DNA of 46,972 nt from a virus: IMG/VR virus record IMGVR_UViG_3300047319_000536, positions 1 to 46,972 of that record, one strand, 5' to 3'. The notes below the pieces were generated by a model that was not told the origin of the DNA, did not search any database, and saw only the letters and a program-made list of their open reading frames with translations. Of the stretch, positions 15,592 to 42,018 are shown in pieces (position 1 is the stretch's first letter; every line of letters starts with the position of its first letter). The translations under genes were made by a program, and so were the position numbers.

Positions 15592-15699
15592 TGTCCGGAC
15601 ACCGGACAGACTCTCCCCTTTTAAGGGGGGAGAGATTGTCCGTCCGGTTGAGTGTCGCTGGACTGTCCGGTTATGTCCGGCTTTGTCCGGCTTGTCCGG
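15592..15699. repeat. Iteron-like TGTCCGG array
   Basis: TGTCCGG starts at 15664, 15674, 15684 and 15693 (steps 10, 10, 9). Further copies are at 15592 and, inverted, at 15602-15608, with a variant at 15637. Additional copies lie inside the helicase gene at 15784, 15842 and 15851, with TGTCCGA at 15799. Helical phasing suggests a protein binds the same face of DNA repeatedly, as at replication iterons. The array covers the 3' end of the helicase gene and the gap after it. Confidence 0.7.
15611..15634. other. Strong hairpin in the helicase / Cys-His gap
   Basis: CTCTCCCC (15611-15618) pairs perfectly with GGGGAGAG (15627-15634) around an 8-base loop. It lies in the 93-bp gap between the helicase stop and the next gene. 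Neither side has the T run of a factor-independent terminator, so an RNA processing, attenuation or stabilising role is more likely. Confidence 0.6.
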
Positions 15700-16789
15700 C
15701 TATCCAAACCTGATCCTGCCAAATGCCAATGATATGAGCAGCTTGCAGCTCGGAAACAGCTCTTCGGAACGCCTTCGACTTACTGTCCGGCTTGTCGCTG
15801 TCCGAGATTGTGCCGGCATCACAATACGACCTCCAGTCAATTGTCCGGGCTGTCCGGGTGCCTGGCGGGATCCTGGATGTTGCAGAAGGTATTGATCCCA
15901 TGTCGTTAATTGTCTCGGCCAGCATCGTGAGTGCTACTCGCGCGGTGGGTGATACTTTGCCTTTGGTGCCACCGAAGTTGTCCCCACTTTCGAGCTCCCG
16001 GATGACGCACGAAGTGATCGGATCGCCATCATCATCGACTCCCAATTGCACCAACTCCAGGCGCGACCGTAGCACCTCGCCCTCGAGCCCGTCCTTCATG
16101 TGCTCCACTGTCACGATGATGTTGTTGGCCTCATCCCGCTTGACGGCCAGCTGGGCGTCGCAGGCGCCGGTCAGGGAGGTGTGCCCGCGCGGTCTGGAGC
16201 CATCGACGCCACAATGGTGCACGATGATCACGACGCACCCAAAGGCTTCCCTGATGGCGTCAGCAGCCCTGACATACTTACCCATGTCCTCGTCATTGCT
16301 CTCGCTGCCGACCAGGCTCCGATTGAGCGTGTCGAGCACCACCACCGCCGGCGTCGCCACCTGGGCCCGAATAGCCGCGATCAGCAACCGGTGATCGGCG
16401 ATCAGGTCCATCACGGTCGGCACCAGGTAGAACGGCGCCTCGACGATCGCGTGCTGTCTCCTAAAGGCCTCGGCTCGAGCTCTGAACCCATCGGCCCCCT
16501 CAAAGGCACAATACACCACCGACCCAGGCGCAACCCGGTGTGAACGATACTCCCACCCCATCGCCACATGCATCACCAGGTCGAAGGTCCAGAACGATTT
16601 GCCGCATTTCGGTGGGCCCCACACCACCACCAGGCCGACCCGCGGGATCAATCCTTTCACCAGGTACACCGAGACATGCCCAGGCTGCAGCTCGACAAAC
16701 GGGATCAGCCGAAACCGCTGCCGGTCCTTGAGCGACACCACACGATCGATCGGCACGAACCCTTCCTCGAAACCATCATTGTCGGCCAC
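15671..16789 (-). CDS. RepA-like replicative helicase (AAA_25/RecA fold)
   Basis: A 372-aa NTPase. Walker A GPPKCGKS lies at about residues 58-65 after VGLVVVW; Walker B is VVVLDTLNR; a later VVIIVHHCG is the usual sensor segment of the RSF1010 RepA / AAA_25 group. These hexameric enzymes unwind DNA at phage and plasmid origins. A GTG at 16789 with GGAGGG six bases upstream is the preferred start, overlapping the primase gene by 14 bp; ATG at 16807 is an alternative. The C-terminal 100 residues vary and their coding DNA holds TGTCCGG repeats, recalling lambda, whose origin lies inside a replication gene. Confidence 0.85.
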   Translation of the reverse strand: MADNDGFEEGFVPIDRVVSLKDRQRFRLIPFVELQPGHVSVYLVKGLIPRVGLVVVWGPPKCGKSFWTFDLVMHVAMGWEYRSHRVAPGSVVYCAFEGADGFRARAEAFRRQHAIVEAPFYLVPTVMDLIADHRLLIAAIRAQVATPAVVVLDTLNRSLVGSESNDEDMGKYVRAADAIREAFGCVVIIVHHCGVDGSRPRGHTSLTGACDAQLAVKRDEANNIIVTVEHMKDGLEGEVLRSRLELVQLGVDDDGDPITSCVIRELESGDNFGGTKGKVSPTARVALTMLAETINDMGSIPSATSRIPPGTRTARTIDWRSYCDAGTISDSDKPDSKSKAFRRAVSELQAAHIIGIWQDQVWIAGQAGQSRT

Positions 16790-17696
16790 AGCGATCCCTC
16801 CACACATCGGCAGGATCCCAGCCCTCACGTTCCGGCACCTTGACCAGCACGCTCCGCTCATGCGTCTGCCACCATCGATCGCGACACAGACGCGCAGCAC
16901 GCAAGCCGGCGACGTCATGATCGGCCCAGATGATCAGGCCGTCGAGCGCCTCGTCGAACATCGGCAGCCGCTCGACAGCTCCGGCCGATCCCAGCGCCCA
17001 CACCGGCGCCTGGTCCATGCCTGGCTTTGGCTGCTCCACCATCGCAAACACCGACAGCGCGCTCTCGAGCCCCTCGGTGACGTTGAGCAGACACGGCATG
17101 TCGATGCGGCTGTAGATGCCCAGCATCATCGCGGCGTGGCTCACCGGCCCCAGCATCATGGTCCCGTCTTTGCGATCGTCAACCAGGTAGATCCGCTGTA
17201 CCGCCTGGACGATCGATGGCGTCACCAGGTCGCGCATCACCATCACGATCGCAGGCTGCACCGCCTTGCCGCGCGGGCACTGAGGATGAAACCGGATGTC
17301 CTCGAATTGCCTGGCAACCGACCAGATGTCGCGGCTCTCGAGATAGCGCTGCGCCATCGTGCCGTGACACAGGATCGCATCGTCAAAGATCCTGCGCGCC
17401 CGATCGCGCATCGCGAGCGCATCCGTTTCATGTGAAACCTTAGCCGCTGTCTGTGTCTGTCGATCTCTGTCTGTATCGGAAGCACGTCCTTCCCACAGGC
17501 CGCGCCGCCTGAGCGCGGCGATGATCTCGACCGGCGAACATTGCGCCGACAGACATCTCACCTGCACCGCACCGGTCTTGCCTTCAAAAATGATGCAGCT
17601 CGGCTGTTCGTCATCATGCGCGGGGCAGCACACCTTCCACTGCCGGCCGTATTTCTTTTTGGCTCCAAGCGCACGGGCGAGCTGCTCTGCATTCAT
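16776..17696 (-). CDS. Primase with CHC2-like zinc finger and Toprim domain
   Basis: A 306-aa protein. Residues 23-55 form a zinc-binding site: CCPAH (Cys24, His27), then Cys48 and Cys53. After a linker (70-95) comes a catalytic part with Toprim signatures: Glu208 in VTEGLESALS and Asp259/Asp261 in IIWADHDVAG. This is the domain pair of DnaG-like phage primases (DUF7146/Toprim_3 group), which lay RNA primers for DNA synthesis. It is followed directly by the helicase, a typical primase-helicase pair. The linker region is coded by a TGTC repeat array that gives a DTDRDRQTQT sequence. Confidence 0.9.
   Translation of the reverse strand: MNAEQLARALGAKKKYGRQWKVCCPAHDDEQPSCIIFEGKTGAVQVRCLSAQCSPVEIIAALRRRGLWEGRASDTDRDRQTQTAAKVSHETDALAMRDRARRIFDDAILCHGTMAQRYLESRDIWSVARQFEDIRFHPQCPRGKAVQPAIVMVMRDLVTPSIVQAVQRIYLVDDRKDGTMMLGPVSHAAMMLGIYSRIDMPCLLNVTEGLESALSVFAMVEQPKPGMDQAPVWALGSAGAVERLPMFDEALDGLIIWADHDVAGLRAARLCRDRWWQTHERSVLVKVPEREGWDPADVWRDRCGRQ
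17447..17474. repeat. Phased CTGT repeats inside primase gene
   Basis: CTGT starts at 17447, 17457 and 17467, with extra copies at 17451 and 17471: two words per 10-bp turn. The repeats fall in the primase linker, where they are read as alternating Asp, Arg, Gln and Thr. The same word and spacing recur in intergenic DNA at 23.6 and 25.0 kb. Confidence 0.65.
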
Positions 17697-18976: not shown

Positions 18977-19213
18977 TTATGCCGATTTGCGGAAGTCACC
19001 GAGAAAACCGAACAGCTCCAGCGGCGCGTAGTAGCCCTTGTCCTCCAGCGCCACCTTGAGGATGAAGTAGTATTTTGGAGGGATCCTGGCGTGCTTGCCT
19101 GGACGTTTCCAGTTGCACACGCCACTGGCGAGACACCCGGTCAGCCGCGCCGCCTGCGCCGGCCCACCCAGCGCCTTGATGATTTCATCGACAGTCCAGA
19201 CCGGCTGCAGCAT
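18977..19213 (-). CDS. Cro/YdaS-like HTH regulator opening the replication operon
   Basis: A 78-aa DNA-binding protein with WTVDEIIKALGGPAQAARLT, then SGVCNWKRPG, then ARIPPKYYFILKVALEDKGY. The order LGG..A..L....V.NW.....IP.KYY matches the rightward regulator at 11413-11760, so the two are paralogues. The start ATG at 19213 has no clear ribosome site; an in-frame GTG 4 codons upstream is another option. It probably controls its own operon and the divergent recombination operon. Confidence 0.75.
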   Translation of the reverse strand: MLQPVWTVDEIIKALGGPAQAARLTGCLASGVCNWKRPGKHARIPPKYYFILKVALEDKGYYAPLELFGFLGDFRKSA

Positions 19214-19596
19214 GGCACTCACGACGGTTGATTTTGTTTTTCGCCGTCGCACACCAGCGCCGCACATCTAGAACAGCGCGCGCAGAAAACGCAAATTTCA
19301 CAGACAAACACAGACAGAGCTAGACAGCGCAACATGTTGCAGACACGCACAGACAACGGAAAACAGTTCCAAAAAAAATCACAAAAAATGAGCTTGAATT
19401 TTCTGAATGCCGGGATCAATCTCCCGCCCCGTCACGCCACCGTAGACGTGACACATGAGCGATCCGGTTGTGCGACGGTTCCCTCATCAAGACTTCGACG
19501 GCAACATTTTAGTCGACAACACGCGCGACCCCACGAACGACCAAACCACCAAGCCCGTTGTGCTGACGAGATCTCAACTCGCCAGGAGGGAATGCC
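19214..19596. promoter_or_regulatory. Divergent control region with phased AGACA repeats
   Basis: This 383-bp gap separates the leftward replication operon from the rightward recombination operon. AGACA (complement of TGTCT) starts at 19302, 19312, 19322, 19341 and 19351, in phase with 10-bp turns. A perfect 12-base palindrome GCAACATGTTGC (19329-19340) sits among them. An AT-rich stretch is at 19355-19405. A frame starting at 19455 could encode a short leader peptide but is weak. This is the likely early switch region. Confidence 0.65.
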
Positions 19597-22494: not shown

Positions 22495-23074
22495 CCGCGG
22501 CTATCCCATCCCCTGGTTCGTGCCGACCGTCGACGGCAAGCCGGAGTTTCGCGCGATGGACCCGGAAAAGTTCGGCATCGCGGTGCGGCTGAAACGCTGC
22601 TGGCTGTGCGGCCAGCCGCTCGGCGTTCACATGTGCTTTCCGATCGGCCCGATGTGCATGGTGACGCGAACGATCGGCGAGCCGCCATCGCACCACCAGT
22701 GTGCGCTCTATGGCGTCAAGGCCTGCCCGTTCCTGACCCAGCCCAGGATGCGCCGCAACGAGAAGGATCTGCCGGCGGACGCCGAATATGCGGAGGGTGC
22801 AATCCTGCGCAACCCCGGCGTGATCGCGCTCTACACCACCAAGACCTACAAGATCCTGCGGCTGACCAGGTCGATCCTGTTCCAGCTCGGTGAGCCCGAG
22901 CGCCAGCCGGAATATTTCTGCGAGGGGCGCCAGGCCACGCGCGAGGAGATCATGGCCTCGATCGACAGTGGCCTGCCGCTGCTCCGCAAGGATGCCGAGC
23001 AATACGACGGCGCCGAAGGCCTGGCCGAGCTCACCAGGTCGATCGGCCGTGCCATGACGCTGGTGCCGGCATGA
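22424..23074 (+). CDS. 216-aa Cys-rich conserved phage protein
   Basis: Contains IDDRGYPIPWFVPTVDGKPE at residues 20-40, then a Cys cluster CWLCGQPLG, CFPIGPMC and HHQCALYGVKACPF, probably a zinc-binding core. A helical C-half follows. Proteins with this layout (PVD.rGYPVPWFV, C.vCG..lg) occur in many temperate phages and their role is unknown. GGAAGAAG precedes the ATG at 22424, which lies within the end of the previous gene. Confidence 0.7.
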   Translation: MQQLNRKIENIEMPDNIRRLPIDDRGYPIPWFVPTVDGKPEFRAMDPEKFGIAVRLKRCWLCGQPLGVHMCFPIGPMCMVTRTIGEPPSHHQCALYGVKACPFLTQPRMRRNEKDLPADAEYAEGAILRNPGVIALYTTKTYKILRLTRSILFQLGEPERQPEYFCEGRQATREEIMASIDSGLPLLRKDAEQYDGAEGLAELTRSIGRAMTLVPA

Positions 23075-23283
23075 GGAAGCTCAAAACACTCCCCGTCCCG
23101 CCGCCCGAGCGGCTGTCGCTGACGGCGGACGAGGCCTCCGGTCTCACCGGCATCGCCGCCGGCAAGATCCGCGAGCTGTGCAAACAGGGTAAGCTGCCAC
23201 ACGTCAGGCTCGGCCGCCGCATCATCATCCGGCGCGTCGACCTGGAGACCTTCGTCGACCCGAGCAGGAGGGCAGCGGAATAA
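23071..23283 (+). CDS. Excisionase-like MerR/HTH_17 protein
   Basis: A 70-aa protein with a small winged helix: SLTADEASGLTGIAAGKIRE, then LCKQGKLPHVRLGRRIIIRR, then VDLETFVD. This is the HTH_17/excisionase pattern used by phage Xis proteins to bend attachment-site DNA and steer the integrase to excision. It overlaps the preceding gene by ATGA and is followed by the attP-like region and integrase, which supports the call. A regulatory role is also possible. Confidence 0.75.
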   Translation: MRKLKTLPVPPPERLSLTADEASGLTGIAAGKIRELCKQGKLPHVRLGRRIIIRRVDLETFVDPSRRAAE

Positions 23284-23527
23284 GCCGGGGACACTTTCGA
23301 CGGCCAGCGGGAGGGTCGAGGAAAGGAAGCCAGCCTGCGGCCCCGGCACCCGACAGGGGCATACTCCGTTCAAGGCTGGCGACTCTCGCACTTATAAAGT
23401 TGGCAATTCACTGGACGACGCCAGCGGTATCATTGTCCCCTAGATATGGTAGACCAGTGAATTATCTTTTTCATTCAAATCGCGCATTGATTGTTGAGTC
23501 GCATCAATGCTTTAAGGGCATAGTGCA

Positions 23528-23550
23528 AATCCCGTCATGGGATTACTTTT
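23528..23550 (+). terminator. Hairpin terminator after the recombination operon
   Basis: AATCCC (23528-23533) and GGGATT (23539-23544) pair around a 5-base loop and are followed by ACTTTT. A short factor-independent terminator for the rightward operon ending at 23283 is likely; the stem is only six pairs and the T run short. Confidence 0.55.
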
Positions 23551-23555
23551 GAGCG

Positions 23556-23680
23556 CTGTCCTGCTCTGTAGACCTCTGTCCAGCTCTGTCTATGTTGAAG
23601 AAACGCCTGCGCTGCAGCGGTTTCTTGCTCTGTCTACCTTTGTAGATCTCTGTCTGTATCTGTCAGTGATTGTCCAGTGA
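23556..23680. repeat. Two helically phased TGTC arrays flanking a dyad
   Basis: CTGT starts at 23556, 23566, 23576 and 23586, exactly 10 bp apart. After a gap, TGT starts at 23631, 23641, 23651, 23661 and 23671, again every 10 bp. The commonest form is CTCTGTC. Between them is an imperfect dyad, AAGAAAC..CTGC-gct-GCAG..GTTTCTT (23598-23626). Nine near-repeats in strict phase are hard to explain by chance. Confidence 0.8.
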
Positions 23681-23758
23681 CTTCCATAGAATTATCCAGT
23701 GAGCTAAAAAGCGGTCTGGAAAAATCCTACACCGGGATTTCACATTGGGATCGCTGAT

Positions 23759-25015
23759 ATGGCTAAGGAAAAACTGAACGCAAAAAAGCTGACCTCGCTC
23801 AAGTCTGGCGTGAACGCCGACGGCAAACCGATCGATTTCGAGCACTCCGACGGCGGCGGGCTCTACCTGGTCGCGACCGCGGGCGGCAACCACCGCTGGC
23901 TCTTCAAGTTTCAATGGGAAGGCAAGACCAGGCGCATGGGGCTCGGCTCGCTCGACCTGGTGTCGGCAGACCAGGCGCGCGAGCTGGCACGCGAGGCGCG
24001 CAAGCGGGCGCACTACGGCATCAACCCGATGGTCGAGCGTCCCGGCGAGGAGCTCGAGCGTGGCAACTCACCGACCTTCAAGACCTTCGTCGCGGAGATC
24101 CGCCCGGTCGTCGCCTCCGGCATTTCGGAGATCTCGATCAAGCGCTGGGATCTCGGCATGAACGTCTACGCGAAGCCGCTGCACGATCTGAAGATCGCCA
24201 CCATCACCCGGCAGCAGGTGGTCAACTGCCTGCGCCCGATCTGGCTCGACATCCCGGTCGCCGCCAAGAAATTCCAGACCCAGCTGCATGACCTGTTCGT
24301 CCGCGCGATCGCCGCCGACAAGCTGCCTGCTACCGCACCCAACCCGGCCGACTGGACCTTCCTGAAGAAGCTGTTGGACCAGCAGCCCGACCAGGAAGGC
24401 GGGCACCGCTCGCTGCCCTACACCGCGCTGCCGGCGGTCTGGCCGCGCCTGGTCGACATCGACAGCATGGCCTCGCTGGCCGCGCAGTGGATCATCCTGA
24501 CCGGAGTCCGCACCGGCGAGGCGCGCCAGGCCCGCAAGGACCAGGTCGACCTCGAGGCCGGCATCTGGCACATCCCCGGCAAGGTGATGAAGAACGGCAA
24601 GCCGGCGGACGTGACGCTGTCGCGCCAGGCGATCGCGGTGGCGCGCAAGGCCTTGGCGCTGCAGGCCAGCGTGCGCCTGGAGACGCCGCTGCTGTTCCCC
24701 GGCAAGCGGGCAAGCGAGATGCTGAACCAGAACACGGTGCTGTTCCTGTTCCAGAACCAGCTCGAGCTCGACGCCACCACCCACGGTTTCCGGTCCTCGT
24801 TCCGCTCCTGGGGCGGCGACCAGAAAGGCATCGAGCGCGATGTGCTCGAGCACTGCCTGCACCATCTGCTCGGCGACGCTGCCGAGATGGCCTACAACAA
24901 GGCCGAGCAGCGCGAGAAGCGCCAGGAGGTCATGCAGGCCTGGGCCGACTACGTCACCGGCGTGACGCCGCCGGCGATCCGGCGCCGGCCCGACCTCAAG
25001 GTGGTCGCTGCCTAA
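23759..25015 (+). CDS. int: Tyrosine-recombinase integrase, P4 type
   Basis: A 418-aa integrase that joins attP and attB. Residues 1-95 form the DUF4102-type N-terminal arm-binding domain (GGGLYLVATAGGNHRWLFKF, then MGLGS). The catalytic residues are in place: Arg251 in LTGVRTGEARQ, a Lys in the GKVMKNGKP hairpin, His342 and Arg345 in HGFRSSFRSW, His368/His369 in CLHHLLG, and nucleophile Tyr379 in MAYNKAEQ. Length is normal for the P4 group. Upstream are the xis-like gene and arrayed repeats; downstream a terminator. It shows the phage is temperate. Confidence 0.95.
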   Translation: MAKEKLNAKKLTSLKSGVNADGKPIDFEHSDGGGLYLVATAGGNHRWLFKFQWEGKTRRMGLGSLDLVSADQARELAREARKRAHYGINPMVERPGEELERGNSPTFKTFVAEIRPVVASGISEISIKRWDLGMNVYAKPLHDLKIATITRQQVVNCLRPIWLDIPVAAKKFQTQLHDLFVRAIAADKLPATAPNPADWTFLKKLLDQQPDQEGGHRSLPYTALPAVWPRLVDIDSMASLAAQWIILTGVRTGEARQARKDQVDLEAGIWHIPGKVMKNGKPADVTLSRQAIAVARKALALQASVRLETPLLFPGKRASEMLNQNTVLFLFQNQLELDATTHGFRSSFRSWGGDQKGIERDVLEHCLHHLLGDAAEMAYNKAEQREKRQEVMQAWADYVTGVTPPAIRRRPDLKVVAA

Positions 25016-25036: not shown

Positions 25037-25064
25037 ACAGACAGAGACAGACAGAGACAGACAG
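25037..25064. repeat. Tandem 10-bp ACAGAGACAG repeat after integrase
   Basis: The unit ACAGAGACAG occurs twice in tandem at 25041-25060 and is flanked by partial units, giving AGACA at 25039, 25049 and 25059 plus 25045 and 25055. It is the reverse complement of the TGTCTCTGT words before the integrase and in the primase gene, and lies directly before the integrase terminator. Confidence 0.75.
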
Positions 25065-25066
25065 AA

Positions 25067-25482: not shown

Positions 25483-26336
25483 GCCTGAGCCCCCTGGTGC
25501 GCTACGAGGACGAGATCATGCGGAGGTTCAATGCCGGCCAGTCGACGCTGGAGATCGCGACCCACCTCTATGAGCATGCGGTCGGGCCGATCGACAGGAA
25601 CCACCGCGAAAAAGACATCGACACCATCATCGACCTGTTGCACCGCTTCCTGGCCAACCCGCTTGCGGCGCGGCGGGCCTACCAGGCCGAGCAGGAGCAG
25701 CAGCAGGAGCACCAGGCAAGTATTGCCGCCAGGAAGGCCAAGCTGGCCCTGCAGCGCGCCCGGCAAAAGGCCGAGCGCGAGCGCGAGGAGGAGCGGATCC
25801 GAGAACTCGCCGAGAGTCGCCGCCGGCACTTTGAGGAGGAGTGCGCCAAGGTGCCAGCCTGGCGCGATCGCAACTGGGAAGAGGTGCTGCCCACCTGGCT
25901 GGCTGTTCAGCAGCACGCCTGGTGCCGACACATGGCAGCGCGGCGGATGCGGCAGGCCGGCCTCACCCTGGAACAGATCGGCTACCGCTTCCGCGTCAGC
26001 AAGGAGCGGGCGCGGCAGATGGCGCAAAAGGCGCAGCGCTACGAGAACAATCCGCACGGCAACAAGTCGCCGCTCGAGCGGTGGCTAAAGCACACGGTGT
26101 CGTTTGAAACACGCTGGCAGGACTATGCGGACCCAAGCGACCGCAGACGGGCTCGACGAGCGCTGAAGGTGGTCGAGGTCTGGACCGGCCTGGCAACCGT
26201 GCCGCGGTGCTCGGCCGCCGAGCACCGGACCTGGGAACTGTATTACGCAATGCGAGGCGATCATGAACAAGAAAGCCATCACCACCATCAGCGACCACGA
26301 CATGGAGCAGCTGCAGCTGCTGGCCACGATGAATAA
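25479..26336 (+). CDS. 285-aa coiled-coil protein with sigma-like HTH
   Basis: The N-terminus (YEDEIMRRFNAGQSTLEIAT) resembles an HTH of the type found in small phage activators. Residues 60-130 are a long Gln/Glu/Arg-rich coiled coil. Residues 150-185 include RMRQAGLTLEQIGYRFRVSK followed by ERARQMAQKAQR, very like the region 4 helix-turn-helix of sigma factors that reads -35 boxes. It may be a phage transcription factor. The C-terminal end overlaps the RHH gene and is His/Arg-rich. Start at 25479 (ATGA overlap) is preferred to 25470. Confidence 0.7.
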   Translation: MSLSPLVRYEDEIMRRFNAGQSTLEIATHLYEHAVGPIDRNHREKDIDTIIDLLHRFLANPLAARRAYQAEQEQQQEHQASIAARKAKLALQRARQKAEREREEERIRELAESRRRHFEEECAKVPAWRDRNWEEVLPTWLAVQQHAWCRHMAARRMRQAGLTLEQIGYRFRVSKERARQMAQKAQRYENNPHGNKSPLERWLKHTVSFETRWQDYADPSDRRRARRALKVVEVWTGLATVPRCSAAEHRTWELYYAMRGDHEQESHHHHQRPRHGAAAAAGHDE

Positions 26337-26403
26337 GGTCAAGCTGTCCGAGCTGCTGCGCTGGATCATTCGCGCGTACCTCGATGGCAGGAAGCTGCCA
26401 TGA
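26263..26403 (+). CDS. 46-aa ribbon-helix-helix protein
   Basis: A very small frame: MNKKAITTISDHDMEQLQLL, then ATMNKVKLSELLRWIIRAYL, then DGRKLP. The beta strand followed by two helices (TTIS, then HDMEQLQLLATM, then KLSELLRWIIRAYL) is the CopG/Arc/MetJ fold, which binds DNA as dimers at short repeated sites. It lies within the end of the HTH gene and overlaps the DnaA-like gene by ATGA. Such proteins recognise closely spaced direct repeats, so it is a candidate for the phased TGTC arrays. Confidence 0.65.
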   Translation: MNKKAITTISDHDMEQLQLLATMNKVKLSELLRWIIRAYLDGRKLP

Positions 26404-27215: not shown

Positions 27216-27286
27216 GTGTCAAGTGACACTAGAGTGATACTATGGTCTAATGCCGAGTGTCATTTGACACTAGTGTCGATTGAGAC
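27216..27286 (+). promoter_or_regulatory. Sigma-70-like promoter with three operator dyads
   Basis: -35 GTGACA (27223-27228), a 17-base spacer and -10 TCTAAT (27246-27251) give a good promoter for the gene at 27334. Operator 1, GTGTCA-AG-TGACAC (27216-27229), covers the -35. Operator 2, GTGTCA-TT-TGACAC (27257-27270), covers the expected start of transcription. A weaker copy, GTGTCG-AT-TGAGAC (27273-27286), follows. Centres are 41 and 16 bp apart. This is a textbook repressor-controlled promoter; the small HTH at 27788 is one candidate regulator. Confidence 0.75.
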
Positions 27287-27333
27287 TAGTACAGCCTCAC
27301 CGGGTCGCTGGTGACCCCGCAATGGAGACTGCA

Positions 27334-40896: not shown

Positions 40897-42018
40897 TCAG
40901 GCAATATCGATGACCGCCGCGCTGTTGAGGCGCCGCGCACACAATTGCCCGGTCGAGGTGAGCGACCGATAGAGGACATACTTGTCCGGCGTCCGGTCGG
41001 GGGAATGCTGGTGCCGCCACTCGTCCTGCATCGCGACCAAATAGAGGTCGCGGCTGTCGTACCAGTAGCAGCGCTTGGCCTTGCCGAGCGCATCCAGCGT
41101 CGGGTCGTACTCGAAGTCAGTGCCCATGTAGGAGATCTGACCGACCGAGACGTCCTTGCCGCCGGAGAACCCGGTCATCGAGTAGTTGCCATTGGCGCGG
41201 AGTTCGGTCTCCAGTGCGGACAACCAGCTCGAGCCGCAGAACGCCGTGTTCGGCTTGCCACCATACCTGGTCAGCTGCCGATACTCGTTCTGCAAGAGCG
41301 TGATCAGCGCCCCGCCATTGGTGGTGGCAGAGGTGATCGGACCACCGCCCCAGGCCGCTTTTGCCGGCGTGCCGGTCACCGCAGCGCCCATGGCCGCGGT
41401 GTAGGCGCGGTTGCGCCACCAGGTTTTTGCCGTCCGATCGATGCCGGCGACGATACCGATCGTCGGATCATCGGTGATCAGTGCCGCCATGCCGGCGAGC
41501 GCCTTCGGATCCGCGCTGCCGTTGGTCCACAGCAGGTTGTTCATGCCGCGGGCATATTGCTCGCTCATGTCCTGCAGCGCGTCGTCGAGGATGCCGACCA
41601 GGACGGTGTCGTCGCGGCCGGAATGCTCGGTGGTGCGCGAGTCATCGGCGCCGCTGTCGACCACGGTGATGCCGTCGCTCTTCAGCTCACTGTGGGTGAG
41701 CATGATGCCGAGATGCATTTCCTTCCAGGGGAAGATCGCCTGGGTCAGGTTCGCCGGCGTGTAGTAGGTCACCACGTCGTCGAGTTGATAGCCGACCACC
41801 TGGTCGGCGGTGCCGGGGGCTGCGGTGTTGCCGAAGTCACCCTTCACGCTGATGATGATGTTGCCCTTGCCACCAGGGAACGTCTTTTTCTTCGACTCCA
41901 TCGATGCCAGGAGAGGTTTCTCCTGGATGGCCTCTTGGAAGGCGCTGCCCTTATTCAGCCACCAGTCGAGGGCAGCGGTCGTGATGTGGTTGAGAAGTGG
42001 TGCCGTATAGGTCGGCAT
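40897..42018 (-). CDS. Major capsid protein
   Basis: A 373-aa protein. A helical start (PLLNHITTAALDWWLNKGSA) is followed by a mixed alpha/beta fold with the spine region ARGMNNLLWTNGSADPKALA and an end that includes YWYDSRDLYLVAMQDEWRHQ, consistent with an HK97-fold major capsid protein of podoviruses. It follows the scaffold gene at 18 bases. The size (about 40 kDa) suits the main shell protein and it is the only candidate near the portal. Confidence 0.85.
   Translation of the reverse strand: MPTYTAPLLNHITTAALDWWLNKGSAFQEAIQEKPLLASMESKKKTFPGGKGNIIISVKGDFGNTAAPGTADQVVGYQLDDVVTYYTPANLTQAIFPWKEMHLGIMLTHSELKSDGITVVDSGADDSRTTEHSGRDDTVLVGILDDALQDMSEQYARGMNNLLWTNGSADPKALAGMAALITDDPTIGIVAGIDRTAKTWWRNRAYTAAMGAAVTGTPAKAAWGGGPITSATTNGGALITLLQNEYRQLTRYGGKPNTAFCGSSWLSALETELRANGNYSMTGFSGGKDVSVGQISYMGTDFEYDPTLDALGKAKRCYWYDSRDLYLVAMQDEWRHQHSPDRTPDKYVLYRSLTSTGQLCARRLNSAAVIDIA

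Follow-up and report, generated by a model that had tools for sequence, protein, structure and literature searches.

What binds a short word that recurs at 10-bp steps upstream of a phage integrase gene, and where would the recombination site lie in relation to it? This question is raised by the stretch between the xis-like and int genes of the DNA analysed here (IMG/VR record IMGVR_UViG_3300047319_000536; the whole stretch of 46,972 nucleotides is called the window below), in which two groups of such words are separated by an imperfect dyad. The features discussed are collected in Table 1.

Table 1. Positions in the window, strand and basis of the features at the integrase locus and of related arrays
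Feature	Positions	Strand	Basis
Three CTGTC boxes, 10-bp steps, within primase-like ORF; weak	17447..17471	+	word positions
Five GACA boxes sharing a single 10-bp register, centred on dyad CAACATGTTG	19301..19356	-	word positions, lag-10 scan (stretch 19340)
HTH_17 winged-helix protein, 70 aa, predicted excisionase (RDF)	23071..23283	+	Pfam HTH_17, 8.9e-12
CCAGTGA, candidate Int arm-type site (P arm)	23408..23414	-	copy clustering
CCAGTGA, candidate Int arm-type site (P arm)	23454..23460	+	copy clustering
Predicted att core region, starting with hairpin AATCCCGTCATGGGATT (23528-23544)	23528..23556		analogy only
Block 1: four CTGT(C/A) boxes, 10-bp steps, predicted RDF boxes	23556..23595	+	phasing, shuffles; layout like KplE1 TorI boxes
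Imperfect dyad AAGAAACGCCTGCGCTGCAGCGGTTTCTT between blocks; possible host-protein site	23598..23626		similar sites in related elements and at two conserved loci of the Bradyrhizobium chromosome
Block 2: five (C/T)TGT(C/A) boxes, 10-bp steps, predicted RDF boxes	23630..23675	+	phasing, shuffles, survey of integrase loci
CCAGTGA, candidate Int arm-type site (P' arm)	23674..23680	+	copy clustering
CCAGTGA, candidate Int arm-type site (P' arm)	23696..23702	+	copy clustering
Tyrosine integrase, 418 aa, PF13356 arm-binding and PF00589 catalytic domains	23759..25015	+	domain search
Three ACAGACAGAG boxes, 10-bp steps, just past int, same word inverted	25037..25065	-	third-ranked lag-10 stretch of the window (25036 in the scan)

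Phased repeats and flanking genes

The phased repeats are a genuine, statistically strong feature. Four CTGT words (23556, 23566, 23576 and 23586) and five TGT words (23631, 23641, 23651, 23661 and 23671) lie exactly where a first, sequence-only reading of this DNA had placed them. Block 1 reads CTGTCCTGCT CTGTAGACCT CTGTCCAGCT CTGTCTATG from 23556, and block 2, past the dyad, reads CTGTCTACCT TTGTAGATCT CTGTCTGTAT CTGTCAGTGA TTGTCC from 23630. The same reading had put all nine words into a single 10-bp phase, which holds inside each block and fails across the two, as the step from block 1 to block 2, last box to first box, is 44 bp (4 mod 10). Relative to int, the four boxes are found at -203 to -173 and the five start at -129. 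All nine words have the same orientation, so they form no symmetric arrangement about the dyad, and no phased copies of the word were found left of 23556 within the intergenic region. Scoring the phasing against shuffles, which had been proposed together with these positions, placed both blocks far above shuffled sequence, with a lag-10 self-identity of 0.56 on one side of the dyad and 0.53 on the other versus 0.28-0.29 (p about 0.0005 each). A lag-10 identity scan of the whole 47-kb window ranked the two blocks first and second, and none of 1000 shuffles of the intergenic region held one 3-mer in phased runs of at least four plus at least five.

The claim that the word appears in the same phase elsewhere was also borne out, with further arrays in the primase-like ORF, on the minus strand in an intergenic region at 19.3 kb, and inverted just past int. 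The intergenic array lies between the divergent genes for a 96-aa protein (18977-19267, minus) and a YqaJ-type recombinase (19597, plus), and is a candidate early-promoter operator upstream of recombination genes. Below the two blocks, the lag-10 ranking continued with 25036, 15642 (a TGTCCGG(C/T)T variant) and then 19340. The stretch 15642-15703, which carries TGTCCGG(C/T)T at ~10-bp steps, is possibly a variant array; it adjoins a terminator-like hairpin and lies near the 3' end of a helicase-like gene (minus strand, 15671-16918). Palindromic AGTGTCA..TGACACT repeats at 27222-27290, upstream of 27280, look like repressor operators.

The PF13356 integrase is transcribed away from the att region, and its residues R251, K278, H342, R345, H369 and Y379 are invariant in the alignment. 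The closest solved structure to the HTH_17 protein is the Tn916 excisionase (E=0.0027), and matches were found to PHROG excisionase families (PHROG_66 excisionase, 2.5e-4). Judged by this similarity, it is the most likely candidate binder of the arrays; a 46-aa RHH-like protein is the second candidate. Four of the eight CCAGTGA copies in the window lie within one 295-bp stretch (as a gauge, 27 of 2000 shuffles hold some 7-mer at least four times), a clustering suggestive of CCAGTGA being likelier Int arm sites than the CTGT words. No tRNA was found in the window.

Searches revealed no close relatives of the integrase in the phage and plasmid records covered, and single-protein pattern scans of viral and genome contigs likewise detected no close integrases. 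Direct DNA similarity to the window was not found in phages, and a scan of viral contigs for the fourfold CTGT pattern gave no matches with a related integrase beside them. The major capsid protein (40897-42018 in the window; loci L210-L289) links the phage to a large soil phage clade (80-93% identity). An integrase of the PF13356 kind was present in only two of the 26 capsid-clade records checked, G002 (53% identical) and G001 (33%).

Related integrase loci and known excision systems

A survey of the 300 bp upstream of 80 related PF13356-type integrase genes, whose loci are not all independent, showed lag 10 as the top periodicity in 35, compared with 16 of 367 control stretches taken from the same loci as the integrases. 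Two phased runs of one word were displayed by 19 of 83 loci (shuffled mean 0.1); in these 19, the gap between the runs modulo 10 was always 2-6 and mostly 3 or 4. The box words vary by element and include CTGTC, TCCCG, GTCGCA, TCTAC and TTCGCC, among others. A first phasing test of 4-mers in 130-bp windows at eight distant integrase loci had revealed no clear array; the lag-10 test on 80 loci is more sensitive. No correlation of box word with RDF or Int identity was obtainable from the 18 usable loci, which were too few and too divergent. Six loci (L122, L209, L208, L202, L422 and L412) have a second class of repeat next to int at 12-bp steps. Its word recurs beyond the array in four of the six (L122, L209, L208 and L202), which the 10-bp word does not, and by this pattern the 12-bp class is likely to represent Int arm sites.

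The closest parallel is provided by KplE1 (CPS-53) of E. coli, in which mutational work mapped the TorI excisionase sites of attL: there are five, grouped into two blocks that are bordered by the argW core on one side and by the P' sites of IntS on the other (PMC2951348). In the MG1655 sequence, the box words GTTCG, GTCCG / GTTCG, GTTCG, GATCG are found at -154, -134 / -91, -81, -71 from intS, with steps that are multiples of 10 bp within blocks (block I1;2 being -154, -134) and 43 bp between blocks. IntS carries the same PF13356 domain as the window integrase. The window has these elements of a KplE1/TorI-type module: a PF13356 integrase pointing away from att, a winged-HTH excisionase gene (by sequence similarity) and two blocks of 10-bp-stepped boxes, separated by 44 instead of 43 bp. 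In contrast to the window with its nine CTGTC-type boxes, KplE1 has five sites with the words GTTCG/GATCG/GTCCG; its core is the tRNA gene argW, whereas the window core is placed by analogy only, and a Bradyrhizobium-related dyad in the gap is a feature of the window.

RDF operators are generally direct repeats one helix turn apart that are bound cooperatively, and phage 186 has five such operators at attP and seven between the early promoters pR-pL (PMC7498355). Phage 186 Apl and Cox of the P2 family resemble the window in their helix-turn direct repeats at attP and again near early promoters (PMC7498355). The seven plus five Apl sites are of six base pairs, whereas the window has an HTH_17 protein and another word and number of boxes. 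ICEMlSym of strain R7A, a rhizobial element, has five Int arm motifs; its winged-helix RDF, RdfS, forms filaments and binds attP and promoters (PMC11963761). A winged-helix RDF is also predicted in the window; however, no common box motif was found for RdfS, and the Int arm consensus of ICEMlSym is TGKTGGTATC.

Position of the crossover and the dyad between the blocks

Comparison of G218 with empty sites in other Bradyrhizobium genomes showed that host homology stops at CATCACC, 62 bp left of the dyad centre. This junction lies within a terminator-like hairpin, and a second copy of GACCGGCATCACC, at a distance of 13.7 kb, leads into the remainder of the host hairpin. The 13.7-kb element with its mapped attL/attR (L440:836-14528) sits in the hairpin downstream of a DsbA/HCCA-isomerase-like gene. 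It contains four plus three TCCCG boxes and an HTH_17 gene beside int; both arrays lie between the mapped crossover and int, and the rest of the element has no phased run of at least three. In G199, a tRNA-Arg 3' end, the likely core, lies about 67 bp left of the dyad. Because dyad and phased arrays sit between junction and int in G218 and G199, the dyad is read there as a P' arm site.

No convincing match to an attB or prophage junction of the phage itself was found in 259 Bradyrhizobium genomes or in 392 of the family, and searches with 73-bp and 71-bp stretches gave chance-level matches or none; the core is therefore placed by analogy. It is predicted just left of block 1, with the hairpin AATCCCGTCATGGGATT as the best candidate, because this is the same relative place as the G218 crossover and the G199 tRNA end.

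The imperfect dyad that the sequence-only reading had noticed is present, with arms AAGAAAC...GTTTCTT plus CGCTGCAGCG and 22 of 29 positions symmetric. The xis-int gap of G002 holds GCAAGAAACCGCTGCGGCACAG, the reverse complement of the window dyad except for two middle positions, and in G001 a phased array comes after a related dyad (17/22). A genome scan with the dyad core detected a Bradyrhizobium contig carrying the dyad sequence of G002, and a wider search revealed the motif AAGAAA(C/G)CGCTGCGGCACAGGC at conserved Bradyrhizobium loci: one directly after the gene of a small membrane protein and in front of the ar45 sRNA / ornithine decarboxylase (speF) region, the other about 300 bp downstream of gatB. 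Further copies adjoin integrases or an excisionase-like gene (L382, L416, L436 and L357). The conserved motif AAGAAASCGCTGCGGCACAGGC was seen at L387:1501, L363:1508, L344:842 and homologous loci (gatB-downstream / ar45/speF-upstream).

These copies at conserved chromosomal loci and beside integrases had given rise to an early attB idea for the dyad. The dyad was favoured as recombination core since the window shares GCAAGAAACCGCTGC with G002 and with the Bradyrhizobium contig, and was dropped because the G218 crossover lies elsewhere; by the same analogy, strand exchange in the window is unlikely to take place at the dyad. An RNA terminator was also rejected, with folding z-scores of +0.5 to -2.3 and values close to zero for G002, for G218 and for one of the gatB-locus copies. 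As an RNA hairpin is not favoured in most conserved copies, we prefer a site acting at the DNA level, which may be bound by a host DNA-binding protein.

Predicted excisionase boxes and alternative readings of the arrays

Taken together, we consider it likely that 23556-23680 is the integrase-side (P') arm of attP and that its nine words are boxes of the phage's own excisionase (RDF), probably the HTH_17 protein. The words are read as RDF boxes and not as Int arm sites because their KplE1 equivalents bind TorI and because another, int-proximal word flanks the array in several relatives and, as CCAGTGA, in the window. One winged-helix monomer would occupy each box, side by side on one helical face, giving two short filaments of four and five boxes split by the 44-bp step with the dyad. 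By bending the arm, the filament would allow integrase to assemble for excision from its positions on the core just left of block 1 and on outer arm sites (probably CCAGTGA), and it may also repress the int promoter directly downstream. The same excisionase could act at the further array in the early promoter region, as do Apl and Cox in P2-like phages. A point against this reading is that the arrays past int and in the primase-like ORF exceed the needs of a minimal excisionase. The layout is best read as a well-preserved further example of the known KplE1/Apl-type RDF boxes in attP.

The sequence-only reading had proposed an attP with arm sites. Its attP part is supported by the flanking xis-like and PF13356 integrase genes and by the KplE1 attL geometry, whereas the words are probably not Int arm sites and the dyad is probably not the core. 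Were the integrase N-terminal domain to bind the CTGT words around a core cut at the dyad, one could point to the 29-bp dyad between the boxes and its likeness to an 11+7+11 core, to the conservation of this dyad in G002 with its 53% identical integrase, and to PF13356 being an arm-binding domain. We regard this arrangement as unlikely: the crossover of G218 is 62 bp from the equivalent dyad and the likely core of G199 is the tRNA-Arg end, the dyad motif also turns up at two chromosomal loci that lack an integrase, arm sites are better matched by a second word that is repeated on each outer side, and the equivalent KplE1 boxes bind TorI (PMC2951348). Nor does the box word of G218 flank the mapped crossover there, its arrays being on the int side only; the window crossover is placed by analogy. 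That the arrays are operators of a repressor or early regulator unrelated to recombination, which include the int promoter by chance, appears very unlikely. It would account for the same phased word in the 19.3-kb intergenic region, past int and at 17.4 kb; however, two blocks with a 10n+3/4 gap directly in front of the gene are a trait of the PF13356 integrase class, each element having its own word, and arrays at early promoters are already covered by RDFs with a dual role (PMC7498355).

The sequence-only reading had also considered a ParR/RHH-type centromere, for which the 46-aa RHH-like protein encoded at 26263-26403 would be the binder, and the presence of this small ORF is in keeping with it. 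parC-like centromeres also consist of two clusters of about 11-bp direct repeats, a likeness that speaks for such a site. Nevertheless, this is highly improbable, as the RHH-like gene is 2.6 kb distant and is not preceded by an array (no CTGTC in the 165 bp upstream), its product has no Pfam match, G218 shares the layout with none of its ten scanned proteins being RHH, and the layout is explained by KplE1.

Beyond the predicted RDF boxes of the window, split RDF-box arrays with a 10n+3/4 gap could be a general, largely unrecognised rule for PF13356 integrases, combined with a Bradyrhizobium-associated gap site AAGAAASCGCTGCGGCACAGGCG.. (29 bp) that is bound by a host protein as an architectural factor substituting for IHF, also at the gatB-downstream and ar45/ornithine decarboxylase-upstream loci; we consider this wider proposal rather doubtful. 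Among what emerged alongside, the regularity across the survey and the conserved dyad hold the greater interest. Motif searches do poorly with excisionase boxes, whose sequence varies; the layout alone can reveal them, as two blocks with 10-bp steps that lie about 43-44 bp from each other in front of an integrase. From such a layout rule, RDF specificity and the att core could be predicted directly for many prophages and islands without mapped sites, and the conserved gap dyad hints at a possible new rhizobial host factor in phage excision.
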